Of a stretch of 50,086 nucleotides of DNA, positions 5,121-43,849 are shown piece after piece; the stretch's first letter is position 1, and every line of letters starts with the position of its first letter. Source of the DNA: Porphyra umbilicalis (lineage: Eukaryota > Rhodophyta > Bangiophyceae > Bangiales > Bangiaceae). The notes beneath the pieces are model-generated. The model did not search any database and was not told where the DNA came from. It worked only from the letters and a program-made list of their open reading frames with translations. Where the stretch lies: assembly GCA_002049455.2 (NCBI GenBank), contig KV919199.1, forward strand, positions 1 through 50,086, written 5' to 3'. Both the position numbers and the translations under genes were made by a program.

Positions 5121-8100
5121 ATGGTTTGGCGGTGGCTCGCGTGCCTCGGCGGCCGCCACCGCCGCCAGCAGGATGGGGAACAACAGGGCAGTTCTTTGCC
5201 CGTGGGGAGCAGCAGCGGGGATCCGCAGGCGACGGCACCCGTCGGCGGTGGCTCCGGGAGTGGGAGCCTAGCGGCTGTGGTGGCTGGTGTCTCTGCTCCG
5301 TTACCATCTGTGGCGGCCGATGCGGCGGCCACGGGCACCCCCCTACCCGTTGCGGGCGTTGCAGGCGGCAGCGGCACGGTGCCAGTGGTGGCCACCGGCA
5401 GCGGGCCTTGCGGCAGCGACGGCGCGGGCCGGGGTCTTGCGGAGGAGAGCGCAGCTCGGGGAAACTCGGCTGTTCGCAGCGGTGGTAGGGGGAGTGCGGG
5501 CACCGGCGGTGGTGGGGGTGCGGTCGGTGCCGGCGGGGGTGGCGGCTACCCGCTGGTCACTTTTACGGTCCGGTATTGCTATTCAAATACCCGGGAAGCG
5601 CGCACCGGCTCCTCCGTGCGCGCCTGCCTCGGACGCCACTTGTACATCGTGTGGGGCGTCAAGCCGGGGCGGGGGTCACCAACGGTGGACGCCTTTCGGG
5701 CCGAGAACCCAACATGCGTACGGCTGGTGCGTGGGAGCAGCGACCTGCGGGCGGCGGTGCAAGCCAGTGCGGCGGAAAGTTCGGCGGCGGCGGCGCCGCT
5801 CTCGGCTGACGCGGCTGCCGCAATAGCACGGGCGCCCCATCCCGACCGACTGCTGTTGGTGCGGGGCAAGGAGGGCAGCTCCGTCACTGGCGGCGAAGAC
5901 CTGTCGTCCATCACGCTGCTGCTGGAGGCCCCTACAGCCGCCTTGTGCGCGGCGTGGGCCGCGGCGGGGAGCTCCCTCGTGTCCCAGTGGGAGCCACTTC
6001 TGCGCTCGTCCCTGAGTCGCGGGGACGAGGCGGCGGCGGTGAAGGCGATGCTGGACTGGACGGCGGCGACCGGCGCCCCTGCCGCAAACGACAAGCCCGG
6101 GGCGGCGTCGGCGGTGGCGGGGCCTAGTAATCGACGGCGCCTGCTGGAGGCCGCCAATTGGCTGAATGTGGCGTCGCCGACAGCGGTGGCCACCGCGAGC
6201 GTCCTCCGCAAGGGCGCCGACGCGGTGGACGCGGTGACGGGTGTGCCGGCGGTGGGTCCGGCGGTTCGACTTGCCTTGCTGGCGGTGCAGGCGGGGGCAC
6301 TGGCGGTGCGGACCGACGAGCACGGCGACCTGCGGGTGGAGGCTGCCAAGAAATGTGGGGAGGTGGTGCGCCGCTTGTTGGGGCGCACCCTCCACACGAT
6401 GCGGCTTGCCGAGACGGAGTTTGGAAGCGTGCACGTGGAGCAGCTTTGCGGGCTGCTGGATCGGGCCGAGGCGGTGATGGAGGAGGTGGAGGGCACCGTC
6501 TTTTCATCTGGGTGGAGGGCCGCGCTCCAAGGCGACTCCATGCGACGGTGGGGGGGGAGGTTGACACCCTACACACTGAAGTGCTCAGCGTTTGCGCGGT
6601 GGGCGCCATCGGCGTCGGGGTGGACGAGCTGAAAGTGGAGATGTCTTCCATATGGCGCTCCATGCACGCGGCGCGCGCGTTGCCGGCGGTCGACCCCGAG
6701 CTGGACGCCCACGACCTGGGCTGGCGTGCGATCACGACCGTCCCCGGCTACGTGTCGGGCGTGGACAGCCCAGAACGCGCAGAGTACTCCATTGTGCAGG
6801 AGCTGCTCCAGTACAAGGCCGGCGGCAGCGATAAGGCCCCCCGGGTGGGCGTCTGTGCGATTGGCGGCAGCGGCAAGACGACGGCGTGCGCCGGTGTGGC
6901 GGCCAGCGCGCCCGTGCGCGAGCACTTCTCCGTCGTGTGGATCCACATGGGCGACACCGTCTCCCCGCAGATGATCGAGGATGCGGTCGTGGCCCTGACG
7001 CTGCGCTTTTGCGGCCGAGACACCGCCCGGCGGCTGCTGCGCCTGCCTACGGACGCTGACGTTGTGGGCACCGCGGCTCGATACATGCAGTCGGAGGGGG
7101 TGCCCGACGCGGCCAAGTGGTTGGTGATCGTTGACGACGTGGTGTATGGTAAGCATGATTGGCTGTTGCGTCTCCTTCAGGTCGTGCCGACGGCTACCCC
7201 CGTCCTGTTCACCACGAGAGCCGAGCCGGTGGTGGCCCTTGTGAGCGGGGCCCAACTGGTGGCGTTCGATGCGCTGCCTGCGCGGGACGCCAAGGCCCTA
7301 CTGGCCAAGGCGCTGCGTAGGCCAGTCAACGGTGGGGGGCCCCCATTTTCTTCCACCGAGGAGGAGGCGTGGGTGGACTCGGTCTTGGACATGACCGGGC
7401 GGCACGCATTGTCATTGAGCATCCTCGGCGCCGTGATTGCCGCCAAGCGCGGCGCCTGGCACCCGGTGCTACAGGCCATGAAGGAGCAGTTGAAGCACCT
7501 GGACTATTCGCTGCCGCCGGGCGGCCTCGACTCGCCACGGTCGGTACGGGCCACTCTCGCCACCAGCCTCGCGCTCCTCCCCGACGAATCGTGCCGGGCG
7601 GCGTTTGCGGCAGTGGGGGTGCTGCCGACCAGTGTGCTGGTGGGCGTGCCTGTGCTGGCCCGACTGTGGCGCCCGCAGCTAGAGGTTGCTGGTGCCCCGG
7701 GTCAGTGCCGGGCCGACGACGACCGTGGTAGAGGTGTTTCCGGTGGTGGTCGAGGGTATGCGGTGGCTGCCAGTGACGTAGACGAGCTGGTGGACGTGCT
7801 GGTGGGGGCCGGGCTGATACGCTGCGAGTCGGACGCTGACCGTGGCCTCGTGACGGGCGTGGTGGTGCATCCCGTCGTTGGGAGCTATGCGCGGAGCCTG
7901 TTGGGTGACGCCTGCCCCTCCACCCATCGGCGGCTGCTGATGGATGAGTACCAGGCCGGGGTGGATGGCGGTCGTTTGGATTTTTTTGGGTGGAGCTCAT
8001 GCCCCTTTTGGGAGTTGCGGCACGACGACGGGTACCTATACGACAATGTTGCTCGCCACGCGGCGGCGAGCCGGGACGTAGCTGCCCTGATGTCGCTGCT

Positions 8101-10768
8101 GAGCAGCGAATGGCAAGACACGCGAGTGCGGACCTGCTCGCCGCTAGCGTATCAAGGGGATGTAGAGGTGGTGTTGGCGTCGCTGGTGGGGGTGGTCAAC
8201 GACGCTAATCACGTGGTGCACCGCACCCCCGCGCTCCTGTGTGGTGTTCTGTACGGGGTCTCCGTGGCCTTCAGCGATCGGATTGCGGGTAGCCGACGCG
8301 TCAACATTGAGGCGGCCATCAACCACCTGCAGCGTGCACTCAAGCTCGTGACACGTGCCGATTCACCCTGTCGGTGGGCGCAGCTTCAGCACACTTTGGG
8401 CAGCGCGTACAACAACCGCGTGCGCGGGGACCGGGGGGACAACGTCGAGGCGGCCATTGCGTGCTACCAGGCGGCGCTGGAGGTGCGGACGCGGAAGGCG
8501 GCGCCGCTGAACTGGGCAATGGCGCAATCCAACCTGGGCAACGCGTACAACGACCGCGTGCGCGGGGACCGGGGGGACAACGTCGAGGCGGCCATTGCGT
8601 GCTGCCAGGCGGCGCTGGAGGTGTGGACGCGGGAGACGGCGCCGCTTGACTGGGCAATGGCGCAATCCAACCTGGGCGCCACCTACAGCGACCGCGTGCG
8701 CGGGGACCGGGGGGACAACTTGGACGTGGCCATTGGGTGCTACCAGGCGGCGCTGGGGGTGATGACGCGGGGCACGGCGCCGCTGATGTGGGCAATGGCG
8801 CAACATAACCTGGGCAACGCGTACAACAACCGCGTTCGCGGGAACCGGGGGGACAATGTGGAGGCGGCCATTGGGTGCCACCAGGCGGCGCTGGAGGTGC
8901 AGACGCGGAAGGCGGCGCCGCTGGACTGGGCGACGACGCAAAACAAGCTGGGCAACGCGTACAACAACCGCGTGCGCGGGGACCGGGGGGACAACGTCGA
9001 GGCGGCCATTGGGTGCCACTAGGCGGCGCTGGAGGTGCGGACGCGGAAGGCGGCGCCGCTGGACTGGGCGAGGACGCGATCCAACCTGGGCGCCGCGTAC
9101 CACGACCGCGTGCGCGGGGACCGGGGGGACAACGTCGAGGTGGCCATTGCGTGCTGCCAGGCGGCGCTGGAGGTGTGGACGCGGGAGGCGGCGCCGCTGA
9201 ACTGGGCAATGGCGCAATCCAACCTGGGCGCCACCTACAACAACCGCGTGCGCGGGGACCGGGGTGACAACGTCGAGGCGGCCATTGCGTGCTACCAGGC
9301 GGCGCTGGAGGTGCGGACGCGGAAGGCGGCGCCGCTGAACTGGGCAATGGCGCAATTCAATCTGGGCAACGCGTACAACGACCGCGTGCGCGGGGACCGG
9401 GGGGACAACGTCGAGGCGGCCATTGCGTGCTGCCAGGCGGCGCTGGAGGTGTGGACGCGGGAGACGGCGCCGCTTGACTGGGCAATGGCGCAATCCAACC
9501 TGGGCGCCACCTACAGCGACCGCGTGCGCGGGGACCGGGGGGACAACTTGGACGTGGCCATTGGGTGCTACCAGGCGGCGCTGGAGGTGATGACGCGGGG
9601 CACGGCGCCGCTGATGTGGGCAATGGCGCAACATAACCTGGGCAACGCGTACAACAACCGCGTTCGCGGGAACCGGGGGGACAATGTGGAGGCGGCCATT
9701 GGGTGCCACCAGGCGGCGCTGGAGGTGCAGACGCGGAAGGCGGCGCCGCTGGACTGGGCGACGACGCAAAACAAGCTGGGCAACGCGTACAACAACCGCG
9801 TGCGCGGGGACCGGGGGGACAACGTCGAGGCGGCCATTGGGTGCCACTAGGCGGCGCTGGAGGTGCGGACGCGGAAGGCGGCGCCGCTGGACTGGGCGAG
9901 GACGCGATCCAACCTGGGCGCCGCGTACCACGACCGCGTGCGCGGGGACCGGGGGGACAACGTCGAGGTGGCCATTGCGTGCTGCCAGGCGGCGCTGGAG
10001 GTGTGGACGCGGGAGACGGCGCCGCTGAACTGGGCAATGGCGCAATCGAACCTGGGCGCCACCTACAACAACCGCGTGCGCGGGGACCGGGGGGACAACG
10101 TCGAGGCGGCCATTGGGTACTGCCAGGCGGCGCTGGAGGTGCGCACGCGGGAGGCGGCGCCGCTGAACTGGGCGATGACGCACAATATTCTGGGCGAAGC
10201 GCACCACGACCGCGTGCTCGGGGACCGGGGGGACAACGTGGAGGCGGCGATTAGGTACTACCAGGCGGCGCTGGAGGTGTGGACGCGGGAGACGGCGCCG
10301 CTGGACTGGGCAATGGCGCAAAGCAACCTGGGCAAGGCGTATGTCAACCGCATGCGCGGGGACCGGAAGGACAACGTGGTGGCGGCGATTAGGTGCCACC
10401 AGGCAGCGCTGAAGGTGCAGACGCGGGAGACGGCGCCGCTGCAGTGGGCGAGGACGCAAAACCACCTGGGGCTAGCGTACGTCGACCGCGTGCGCGGGGG
10501 CCGGGGGGAAAACCCGAGGGAAAACGTGGAGGCGGCGATCGGGTACTACCAGGCGGCGCTGGAGGTGCGGACGCGGCAGGCGGCACCACAGGACTGGGCA
10601 GATACCCATTTGAACCTGGCGTTTGCGTTCCGTCAAGCCGAGCGGCGGACAGAGGCGCTGGCGGCCCTGCGTGCCGTGCAGCACTTCGGGTCGCAGTGGG
10701 CGAGGTGGGACGAGAAGGAGGCCGAGCTGTCACGCACCCTGGATGAGCTGGAGGGCATAGTTGAGTGA
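5121..10768 (+). CDS. NLR-like protein: helical bundle, NB-ARC ATPase, TPR array (interrupted)
   Basis: Reading ATG 5121 to TGA 10766-10768 gives about 1882 residues if one base is restored in the G8 run at 6550-6557. Before the run the frame is that of 5121; after it the frame is that of 6551. Order of parts: a low-complexity N-terminus; a probable four-helix bundle (about 6180-6495) resembling MLKL/RPW8-type N-terminal domains; NB-ARC with Walker A GGSGKTT (about 6863-6883), Walker B LVIVDDVV (about 7122-7145), FTTR (about 7207-7218) and a GLPL-like GRHALSLS; a winged-helix-like segment with VVHPVV (about 7861-7878); then 17 TPRs of 46 residues from about 8300. Two identical TAG codons (9020-9022, 9848-9850) replace a conserved Gln codon. 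Such STAND ATPases act as switch-like receptors with repeats as the sensor; a role in immunity or cell death is inference. It could be a pseudogene, a polymorphic allele or partly mis-assembled. Confidence 0.8.
8464..10119 (+). repeat. 828-bp tandem duplication (six 138-bp TPR units) within the NLR-like gene
   Basis: 8464-9291 and 9292-10119 are near-identical. I see only a few substitutions, for example 'caatccaacc' versus 'caattcaatc', and one Gly/Glu change near 8754/9582. The 828 bp equal exactly six 46-residue TPR units, so frame is preserved. The block carries a TAG in place of the CAG of the conserved 'CxQAALEV' motif, present once per copy at 9020 and 9848. The nonsense change therefore preceded the duplication or was spread by gene conversion. 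The smaller 138-bp units also repeat beyond the block on both sides (about 8300-10580). Confidence 0.9.
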
Positions 10769-41807: not shown

Positions 41808-43849
41808 CTACACCCATGACACGGCCGCGGTTACGGCTGCCACGGCCCACCGCACCGCCTCGGCGACGCGCCCGCCGTCGCCGTGGAGCCACCCGACGCT
41901 GCCCCACCCCGCCCGGTACGCCCAGCGGAGCGGCGCCATCAACGCCACCGCCGCCGCCGGCCGCACCGCCGTCGTCAAAGTCGACACGCGGAAGCCGTCG
42001 ACGACCACGTCGACGCCGTCGAGCACCTGCGGCGCGTACAAGCCCGTCGCCATCACGGCGCCGACGGCCACGACCGCGTCGGCCGTCGCCGCGCAGGTGC
42101 CGGCGGCCGGGCACACGCCAGACACACGCTCCAGGGTGTCCCCGACGCGGACGGACCCCGCCGCCACCAAAGCCCCCGACGCGTAGATGAGGTGCCCCGC
42201 CGAGGCGGTGAGCGCTCCCCCCGACGCGGTGCGGAGGCGCACGAATGGGTACTCGCCGACGTGCAGCCGGTGGGACCACATGAATACGGGCGACGTGCCG
42301 CCCGCCGCGTCGACGACGAGCGCGTCGCCAGTGTCCACCTCCCGCAACGCCACCGCCGTGCCGTCGGATCGTGTGACGGACGCGGAGCCCGGGAAGCACG
42401 TCGGGTTGATAGTCGTCTCGTTTTCCGCGGGTACGGGCTCCCCGCCGGCGCCGGGCTGCAGGGGCACCCCCCCGGGACCCATGGGTGGTGCGCCCGCCGG
42501 CCCGAGGGGCATTTGTGGCTGCTGCGGGAAGGGCGCGACGGGCATCTGCGGTTGCTGCGGGAAGGGCGCGATGGGCATCTGCGGCTGCTGTGGGAAGGGC
42601 GCGACGGGCATCTGCGGCTGCTGTGGGAAGGGCGCGACGGGCATTGCCGGTGGCATACCCCCGCCGTGGCCGGGCGCCGGCATCGGCGCCATGGGCGGCT
42701 GCATCGGCGGGAGCATTCCCCCCCCGTGGCCGGGCGCCGGCATCGGCGCCATGGGCGGCTGCATCGGCGGGAGCATTCCCCCCCGTGGCCGGGCGCCGGC
42801 ATCGGCGCCATGGGCGGTTGCATGGGTGGGAGCATTCCCCCCCCGTGGCCGGGCGCCGGCAGCGGCGCCATCGGCGGCTGCATGGGCACGACCGGCTGCA
42901 TGGGCGCCATGGGTGGCTGCATCTGCGGCACCGCCGACGCGCCGAGGGTGCCGACCGGCCCAAAGCACGTAATCTGCCGCCCGTTGGTCGGCTGCAGCGG
43001 CCGGTTGTTGCCGAGCTCGTTCAACCCCGTGTTGCGGGTGCGGTAGTCGCGGAAGCGGGCGACTTGCCGCGCCGAGATGGGCATGACTTGCATTTCGATA
43101 AACCACGCGAGCTGCTCCGTACACGGGGGCGTCGTGAGGGAGCCCATGTGGTGGCAAAAGCCCGCTTGTGGGCGCTCGATCGTGCCCCACTCGGCGCCCG
43201 ACACACCGACGCCCGGGTCGCCCGTCCCGGCCGCCGCGTTCTGCTCCGCGTCGAGGAGCTTGGTGATCAGCGGGTTGTCCACGGGGGAGAAGTCAAAGAG
43301 CACGCCGACGACCGCAATGTGGTCGCCGGGCGCAATGTGCACAAAGTGCATTTCAAACGGGTAGGCCCGCCCGTTGATGGTGTGCTCGGCCGGCGCGTGC
43401 CCGTGCACGTTGACGAGGTTGTACGTTTGGAACTGCCAGTTGAGGGTGCCGCACGTGTCGGACGTGCACTTGAGCGGCACATTGTTGATCGACGTCTTGG
43501 CGGTGAAGGAGGCGGTGCCGGGCGTCAGCAGGGAGAAGAGGGTGACGCGGGGGTAGTTGGTCGGCGACACTTGCACGTTGATGGGGGACTGCTGCCGGCC
43601 GGTGCCGCAGGTGGCGAAGGCAGGGTCGAGGCGGCCCCAGTTGTTTGGGCCCGTCACCCCGGAGTAGTTCCACGGCGAGTTGGTGTCGGCGCGCATCGTC
43701 GGGTCCCAGCGGGCGGGCGCGCCAGCCGCCGGGGGAGGGACCAACGCCGCCACCGCGATGATAGCGACGGCGGCCGCAGCGAAGAGCAGGGGGGGACGGC
43801 TGGCCGACCGCCGCACAGTGCAGGGGGGAGGGTCCCCGGAGAAGGCCAT
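41808..43849 (-). CDS. Secreted alpha-carbonic anhydrase fused to Hedgehog-type Hint (Hog) domain
   Basis: ATG 43847-43849 starts a hydrophobic signal peptide (about 20-43). Alpha-CA domain, about 48-295: SPINV (88-92); zinc ligands His149 and His151 (VHGHAPAEH) and His168 (EMHFVH); SLTTPPC (237-243); NNRPLQP (281-287). Linker: four 20-residue MQPPMAPMPAPGHGGG units, then four to five copies of PVAPFPQQPQM. Hint domain from Cys485 (CFPGSASV), with VDTGDALVV, MWSHRLHVG, Thr548/His553 in LTASAGHLIY, SVRVGDTL and VVVDGFRVST, then a hydrophobic tail to residue 680. CA interconverts CO2 and bicarbonate outside the cell; Hog domains cut themselves from the N-terminal part through a thioester, in animals with sterol attachment. 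The two halves are in different frames only because one linker repeat has C7 (42778-42784) where its neighbours have C8; one restored base joins them. Confidence 0.88.
42507..42638 (-). repeat. 33-bp coding tandem repeat, four units (PVAPFPQQPQM)
   Basis: Units at 42507-42539, 42540-42572, 42573-42605 and 42606-42638 encode an 11-residue Pro/Gln repeat in the linker between carbonic anhydrase and Hint. They differ only by silent or conservative changes. Confidence 0.93.
42661..42900 (-). repeat. 60-bp coding tandem repeat, four units (MQPPMAPMPAPGHGGG type)
   Basis: Four units encode a 20-residue Pro/Met/Gly repeat. The intervening C runs are 8 (42718-42725), 7 (42778-42784) and 8 (42837-42844), so the third unit is 59 bp. 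The missing base sets the frame break between the carbonic anhydrase and Hint halves. The same amino-acid repeat is found on both sides of the break, showing they belong to one gene. Confidence 0.93.

Follow-up and report, generated by a model that had tools for sequence, protein, structure and literature searches.

The window analysed here, a stretch of 50,086 nucleotides from the red alga Porphyra umbilicalis (genome 83.8 Mb) that makes up an entire contig (KV919199.1, or C439), carries on its minus strand a gene in which an alpha-carbonic anhydrase (CA) is joined to a C-terminal Hint (Hedgehog/intein) domain. Comparison of the gene with its relatives makes it near certain that one joined CA-Hint precursor gene exists. 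There is about an even chance, judging from the sequence and the predicted structure of the Hint half, that the precursor undergoes self-cleavage at the first Hint residue, Cys1, in which the CA is transferred to a small nucleophile, with a sterol as the likeliest acceptor. An enzyme of CO2 handling may, in other words, be anchored at the surface of the algal cell by Hedgehog-type chemistry. The ATG start codon is found at 43847-43849 and the TAG stop codon at 41808-41810, exactly the ends given by the initial annotation of this DNA, and the parts follow one another from 5' to 3' as signal-like start, CA, repeat linker and Hint domain:

41808..43849, minus strand: whole gene, ATG to TAG, with a frame change within the linker (reading of open reading frames and sequence)
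43718..43849, minus strand: signal-peptide-like start with a charged stretch, hydrophobic core and small residues (judged by eye, without a predictor)
42968..43651, minus strand: alpha-carbonic anhydrase domain with three zinc His (Pfam profile and alignments)
42499..42887, minus strand: linker rich in Pro, Met and Gln, built from tandem repeats of 33 bp and 60 bp (tandem-repeat search)
42760..42800, minus strand: frame-change zone (comparison with the database record P0010)
41916..42401, minus strand: Hint domain (Pfam profile, alignment and predicted structure)
41811..41960, minus strand: tail with two predicted helices, resembling a sterol-recognition region (predicted structure; second helix of lower confidence)

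Each half of the gene is recognised by itself. The upstream frame alone matches the Pfam family Carb_anhydrase (PF00194) with an E value of 3.2e-29 and 102.7 bits, against a cut-off of 27. This is its only Pfam match, and no Hedge signalling domain is present at the N-terminus. The zinc His codons, located by alignment to a solved CA, are 43403-43405, 43397-43399 and 43346-43348. The complete alpha-CA with all three zinc His described by the initial annotation is thus borne out, and its repetitive Pro/Met/Gln linker can now be measured as 3.9 copies of the 60-bp repeat and 4.4 copies of the 33-bp repeat; of the signal peptide that it also named, a signal-like start is seen, by eye alone. Of the 12 aligned proteins that cover this site, 11 (among them the near-copies P0003 and P0004) keep all three zinc His. 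P0016 retains a single one, and in the partial P0018 the third is missing; the Hint residues are intact in both.

The CA half and the Hint half lie in different frames, with the shift falling in the 60-bp repeats, where the lengths of the C runs vary between repeat units. P0010 (source 'ena', 11 member sequences) holds both halves in one frame of 629 residues. Its sequence is the same as that of the upstream frame over the initial 357 residues, exact identity stopping at 42779, and as that of the downstream frame over the final 267, and it carries fewer linker repeats than the window. A second record, P0009, is also unbroken, and is 83% identical to one half of the window gene and 82% to the other. 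Since P0010 and P0009 span both halves in one frame, the most plausible source of the frame break is an assembly error or a repeat-length variant, and the break is no fixed property of the gene. A fixed frameshift, seen beforehand as the main threat to a joined protein, is answered by these two records and by C455, a second locus of this genome. Chance neighbours are ruled out as well. Same-strand CA-Hint pairs no more than 600 bp apart are expected about 0.005 times genome-wide (twice the figure for 300 bp), three are observed, with gaps of 566, 249 and 104 bp between domain matches, and CA-Hint relatives occur in Pyropia.

The downstream frame alone matches the Pfam Hint profile with an E value of 1.1e-13. 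The best structure matches of the Hint model are the Hedgehog D303H mutant (6TYY) and wild-type Hedgehog (1AT0), which are tied, and the modelled fold is nearer to Hedgehog than to inteins. A self-splicing intein is ruled out because there is no C-extein: only the tail helices, over about 53 residues, separate the Hint fold from the end of the frame. Cys1 is encoded at 42396-42398, and the residue at the Asp303 position of Hedgehog, encoded at 42270-42272, is a His that was absent from the residues listed initially. On that list Cys485 and the His of block B hold good, but Thr548 was misplaced, as it lies five residues before the His and the position of the TxxH Thr is occupied by Ser. Block B reads SxxH (SAGH), a conservative change from TxxH, with Ser at 42201-42203 and His at 42192-42194.

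This arrangement recurs in the 23 Hint domains that were read, which comprise the 20 best-scoring matches in the genome and the three that lie beside a CA; since 20 of the 23 were chosen by best score, the counts lean to good matches. Cys1, the anchor of the alignment, is present in all 23, as is a natural His in place of the Asp303 general base, and [T/S]xxH is found throughout (Thr in 12, Ser in 11). Among the CA-Hint proteins, Cys1, His303 and SxxH are invariant in 14 of 14, against a mean column identity of 47%. A review reports that in Hedgehog the D303A mutant is still cleaved by thiol, although cholesteroylation is not completed, and that D303H retains activity and takes more sterols (PMC9163320). 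Since the His is natural at 303 and D303H stays active, the algal active site resembles a Hedgehog mutant known to work. From the literature covered, which did not extend to the original D303H paper (Zhao 2019), we know of no prior description of a uniform natural His at the general-base position. Beyond the Hint fold, the predicted helix-loop-helix tail (helices at 41913-41960 and 41814-41873) resembles the sterol recognition region, and its first helix keeps the Pro and Arg of the H..P.R motif.

From these features a reaction course may be proposed. The gene would yield a secreted precursor that enters the secretory pathway, where the Hint domain would replace the peptide bond before Cys1 by a thioester. 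A hydroxyl nucleophile, most probably a sterol of the alga itself, would be brought in by the helix-loop-helix tail and activated by the natural His that stands in for Asp303, and the CA would be released together with the linker, its C-terminus esterified. Red algal sterol is mainly cholesterol (PMC10817344). Self-cleavage is the likely part of this scheme, whereas the odds on a sterol as the nucleophile are roughly balanced; we infer that the CA would end up on the outer face of the membrane or within the wall space. The idea in the initial annotation that Hog chemistry may release or lipid-anchor an extracellular CA is supported in part, by the joined precursor, its Hedgehog-like Hint fold, the intact Cys1 and the tail resembling a sterol region.

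The gene shares with Hedgehog a secreted N-terminal part, a C-terminal Hint domain with Cys1 and the block-B His, and, by prediction, a helix-loop-helix tail, but its payload is an enzyme and its general base a His. The remaining differences weigh against self-cleavage followed by sterol transfer. The Gly before Cys1, kept in the aligned Hedgehog sequences, is found in none of the 23 Hint domains; the Cys400 position holds Thr in 16, Ser in 3, Cys in 2 and Glu and Val in one each, the window gene not having Cys; the Thr of TxxH has become Ser in 14 of 14 CA-Hint proteins; and no HWY motif is seen by eye. The tail is short, its second helix is predicted with lower confidence (block means 52-70), and the His of H..P.R is missing from the first helix. 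The scheme is drawn from sequence and from a structure predicted for the Hint half, and none of the sequences found is identified as a transcript.

In a rival course the Hint domain would only cut, the thioester being hydrolysed so that a soluble, lipid-free CA is freed into the wall space and the tail serves for membrane docking or retention until the cut. What thioester chemistry needs, Cys1 and residues of the TxxH type, is there or has undergone conservative replacement; thiol-induced cleavage is improved in D303 mutants (PMC9163320), and hydrolysis or ligation has been ascribed to non-splicing Hint domains (PMC7242414). However, the genome already has secreted-looking CAs without Hint, so that a cutter just for release seems needless, and both His303 and the sterol-region-like tail have been retained, which leaves this course rather unlikely. 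The CA might instead be handed to another hydroxyl or amine, such as wall polysaccharide or another lipid, and be coupled to the wall and not the membrane. Several sterol-region residues are indeed missing from the tail, D303H is more tolerant of substrates (PMC9163320), and the Hint partners are secreted-looking proteins with long Pro- or Asp-rich linkers. Such an acceptor is nevertheless unlikely: the hydrophobic first helix with its AP.R stretch fits membrane docking, and a sugar-coupling Hint domain was not met in those parts of the literature that were searched.

The altered Hedgehog positions could also mean that the Hint domain is unreactive and has been retained as a folded C-terminal part. 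This is distinctly unlikely, as none of the 14 CA-Hint proteins departs from Cys1, His303 or the block-B His, not even P0016 and P0018, in which the zinc site is degraded. The case for two genes or a pseudogene, with no joined protein, comes from the broken frame in the window and from the C220 locus, where the frame shifts between CA and Hint too. It has been largely refuted by unbroken relatives, since P0010 (the same gene), P0009, C455 and P0017 (its start missing) each form one frame, and is very improbable.

The preferred course, self-cleavage with transfer to a sterol, concerns a pair of domains that is not confined to the window. A profile search of the P. umbilicalis genome gives 16 CA matches and 80 Hint matches, some of which are pieces of one gene, and three loci have CA and Hint in the same order and on the same strand: C439 (the window), C455 and C220. 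C455 is a single open frame of 547 residues from the likely ATG. The two halves of C220 are about 87% identical to the one-frame P0017. About 5.8 billion proteins were searched, scoring being confined to the 7999 candidates with the most shared words (7999 or 8000 in each of the protein searches), and both domains are present in 13 of the 31 matches listed. These include three proteins of Pyropia vietnamensis (MMPV_007914, MMPV_004974 and MMPV_000425) and a further P. umbilicalis record (BU14_1457s0001), and the named CA-Hint records carry labels such as hypothetical protein. The same pair, proposed for a search in other red algae, is therefore present in two named genera. Pyropia yezoensis has no named CA-Hint match among the scored candidates, its two named matches being Hint only. 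The best match of P0018 in the genome assembly has only 47% identity; since P0018 is absent from it, the assembly is taken to be incomplete. The P0004 contigs (up to 2092 bases) may be transcripts.

The CA and Hint trees are compatible, and neither is fully resolved (C220 and L013, the latter too short, were left out of the CA tree, and L041, whose tail runs into repeats, out of the Hint tree). The CA tree pairs the window gene, represented by P0010, with MMPV_004974 (support 95/98), where the Hint tree is unresolved inside a supported group. The Hint tree groups C455, which is unplaced in the CA tree, with MMPV_007914 and its kin (83/87), and C220 with MMPV_000425 and its kin (97/86). Each of the three P. 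umbilicalis loci is thus likely to have an orthologue in P. vietnamensis. Because the trees pair each locus with a Pyropia protein, the fusion is most likely older than the split between Porphyra and Pyropia and has been kept in three lines. A single origin of the pair is likely. In 78% of the bootstrap replicates of the Hint tree all fused domains fall to the same side of a branch (the bootstrap had not settled); the CA tree needs two changes, because the long-branched unfused L015 and L016 fall among the fused CAs, and a single change suffices in 22% of its replicates.

In all five of the CA loci without Hint that were examined (L009, L010, L013 and the near-copies L015 and L016) the frame stops 4 to 30 residues past the CA match, and three of them (L009, L010 and L016) have a signal-like start by eye. 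These unfused CAs are natural controls. At another locus, L028 (C145:135500-137368), two tandem CA domains lie in one open frame of 1132 residues; a Hint match, separate from it, lies about 3.3 kb upstream.

Since many other Hint loci exist in the genome, the CA gene is one member of a larger Hint set, and many Hint proteins of P. umbilicalis look secreted by eye. Among 20 Hint loci beyond those linked to CA, only one has a genuine front domain over the Pfam cut-off, giving a second recognised payload:

L050:1464-3950, plus strand: imelysin/M75 joined to Hint (Pfam)

The Hint domain of L050, which lies on contig C21, is identical to that of P0152 (BU14_0060s0018, P. umbilicalis). Thymidylate kinase was rejected as a partner at L035, where it is situated downstream in a run-on frame. 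A shared front domain without a Pfam match precedes Hint in eight of the 20 loci read (L032, L034, L036, L037, L042, L043, L047 and L051) and in six database proteins (P0024, P0147-P0150 and P0153). Three matches to the Patched and sterol-sensing families occur, on C190, C5 and C3, and the two strong ones may be NPC1-like.

Hog domains, the Hint domains of the Hedgehog kind, have been reported from algae before, in agreement with what the initial annotation stated of algal Hog domains with other partners. In the Cyanidiales, Hint is joined to kelch through a low-complexity linker that is rich in Thr, Pro and Ala, but the partner differs and the genes form subtelomeric multi-copy sets (PMC9812998). 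Expressed sequence tags reported in 2008 showed that red algae, Porphyra among them, have Hog domains in which motifs J and K are present and the Cys of motif J is replaced; that report identified no known N-terminal partner, and the word 'carbonic' is absent from its main text (PMC2362128). Cyanidioschyzon has Hog genes near chromosome ends (PMC5405695) and a diatom has more than 290 Hint genes (PMC12803021). In view of these reports Hog fusions in red algae are a known kind, and what appears from the sequences to be new is the CA partner; no description of a CA-Hint pair was found in the parts of the open-licence literature searched. Animal CA IV and CA IX are likewise alpha-CAs outside the cell, as proposed here, but are anchored by glycosylphosphatidylinositol or a transmembrane helix and not by a self-cutting domain.

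The arrangement would suggest a new way for a seaweed to keep CA at its surface, where bicarbonate use begins. A wider possibility, which we regard as tentative, is that laver seaweeds have a general sterol- (or other ester-) tagging route for secreted proteins, serving tens of proteins through Hog domains with a natural His base, with CA as the first recognised enzyme. If so, sterylation would be a surface-placement tool far outside animals; in those parts of the literature searched, Hedgehog is the only protein described as carrying covalently bound cholesterol. With a conserved, easily assayed enzyme tagged by Hog in a cholesterol-rich red alga, it can be tested directly whether Hog chemistry came before animal signalling and what purpose it served.

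Elsewhere in the window, frames carry protein kinase, SacI, sedlin, poly(A) polymerase and TspO domains, and because these are ordinary eukaryotic domains the window is taken as nuclear DNA. At 6131-9019 on the plus strand an NB-ARC domain is followed by TPR-like repeats, a combination seen here in a red alga, and TPR-like frames continue to 10765.
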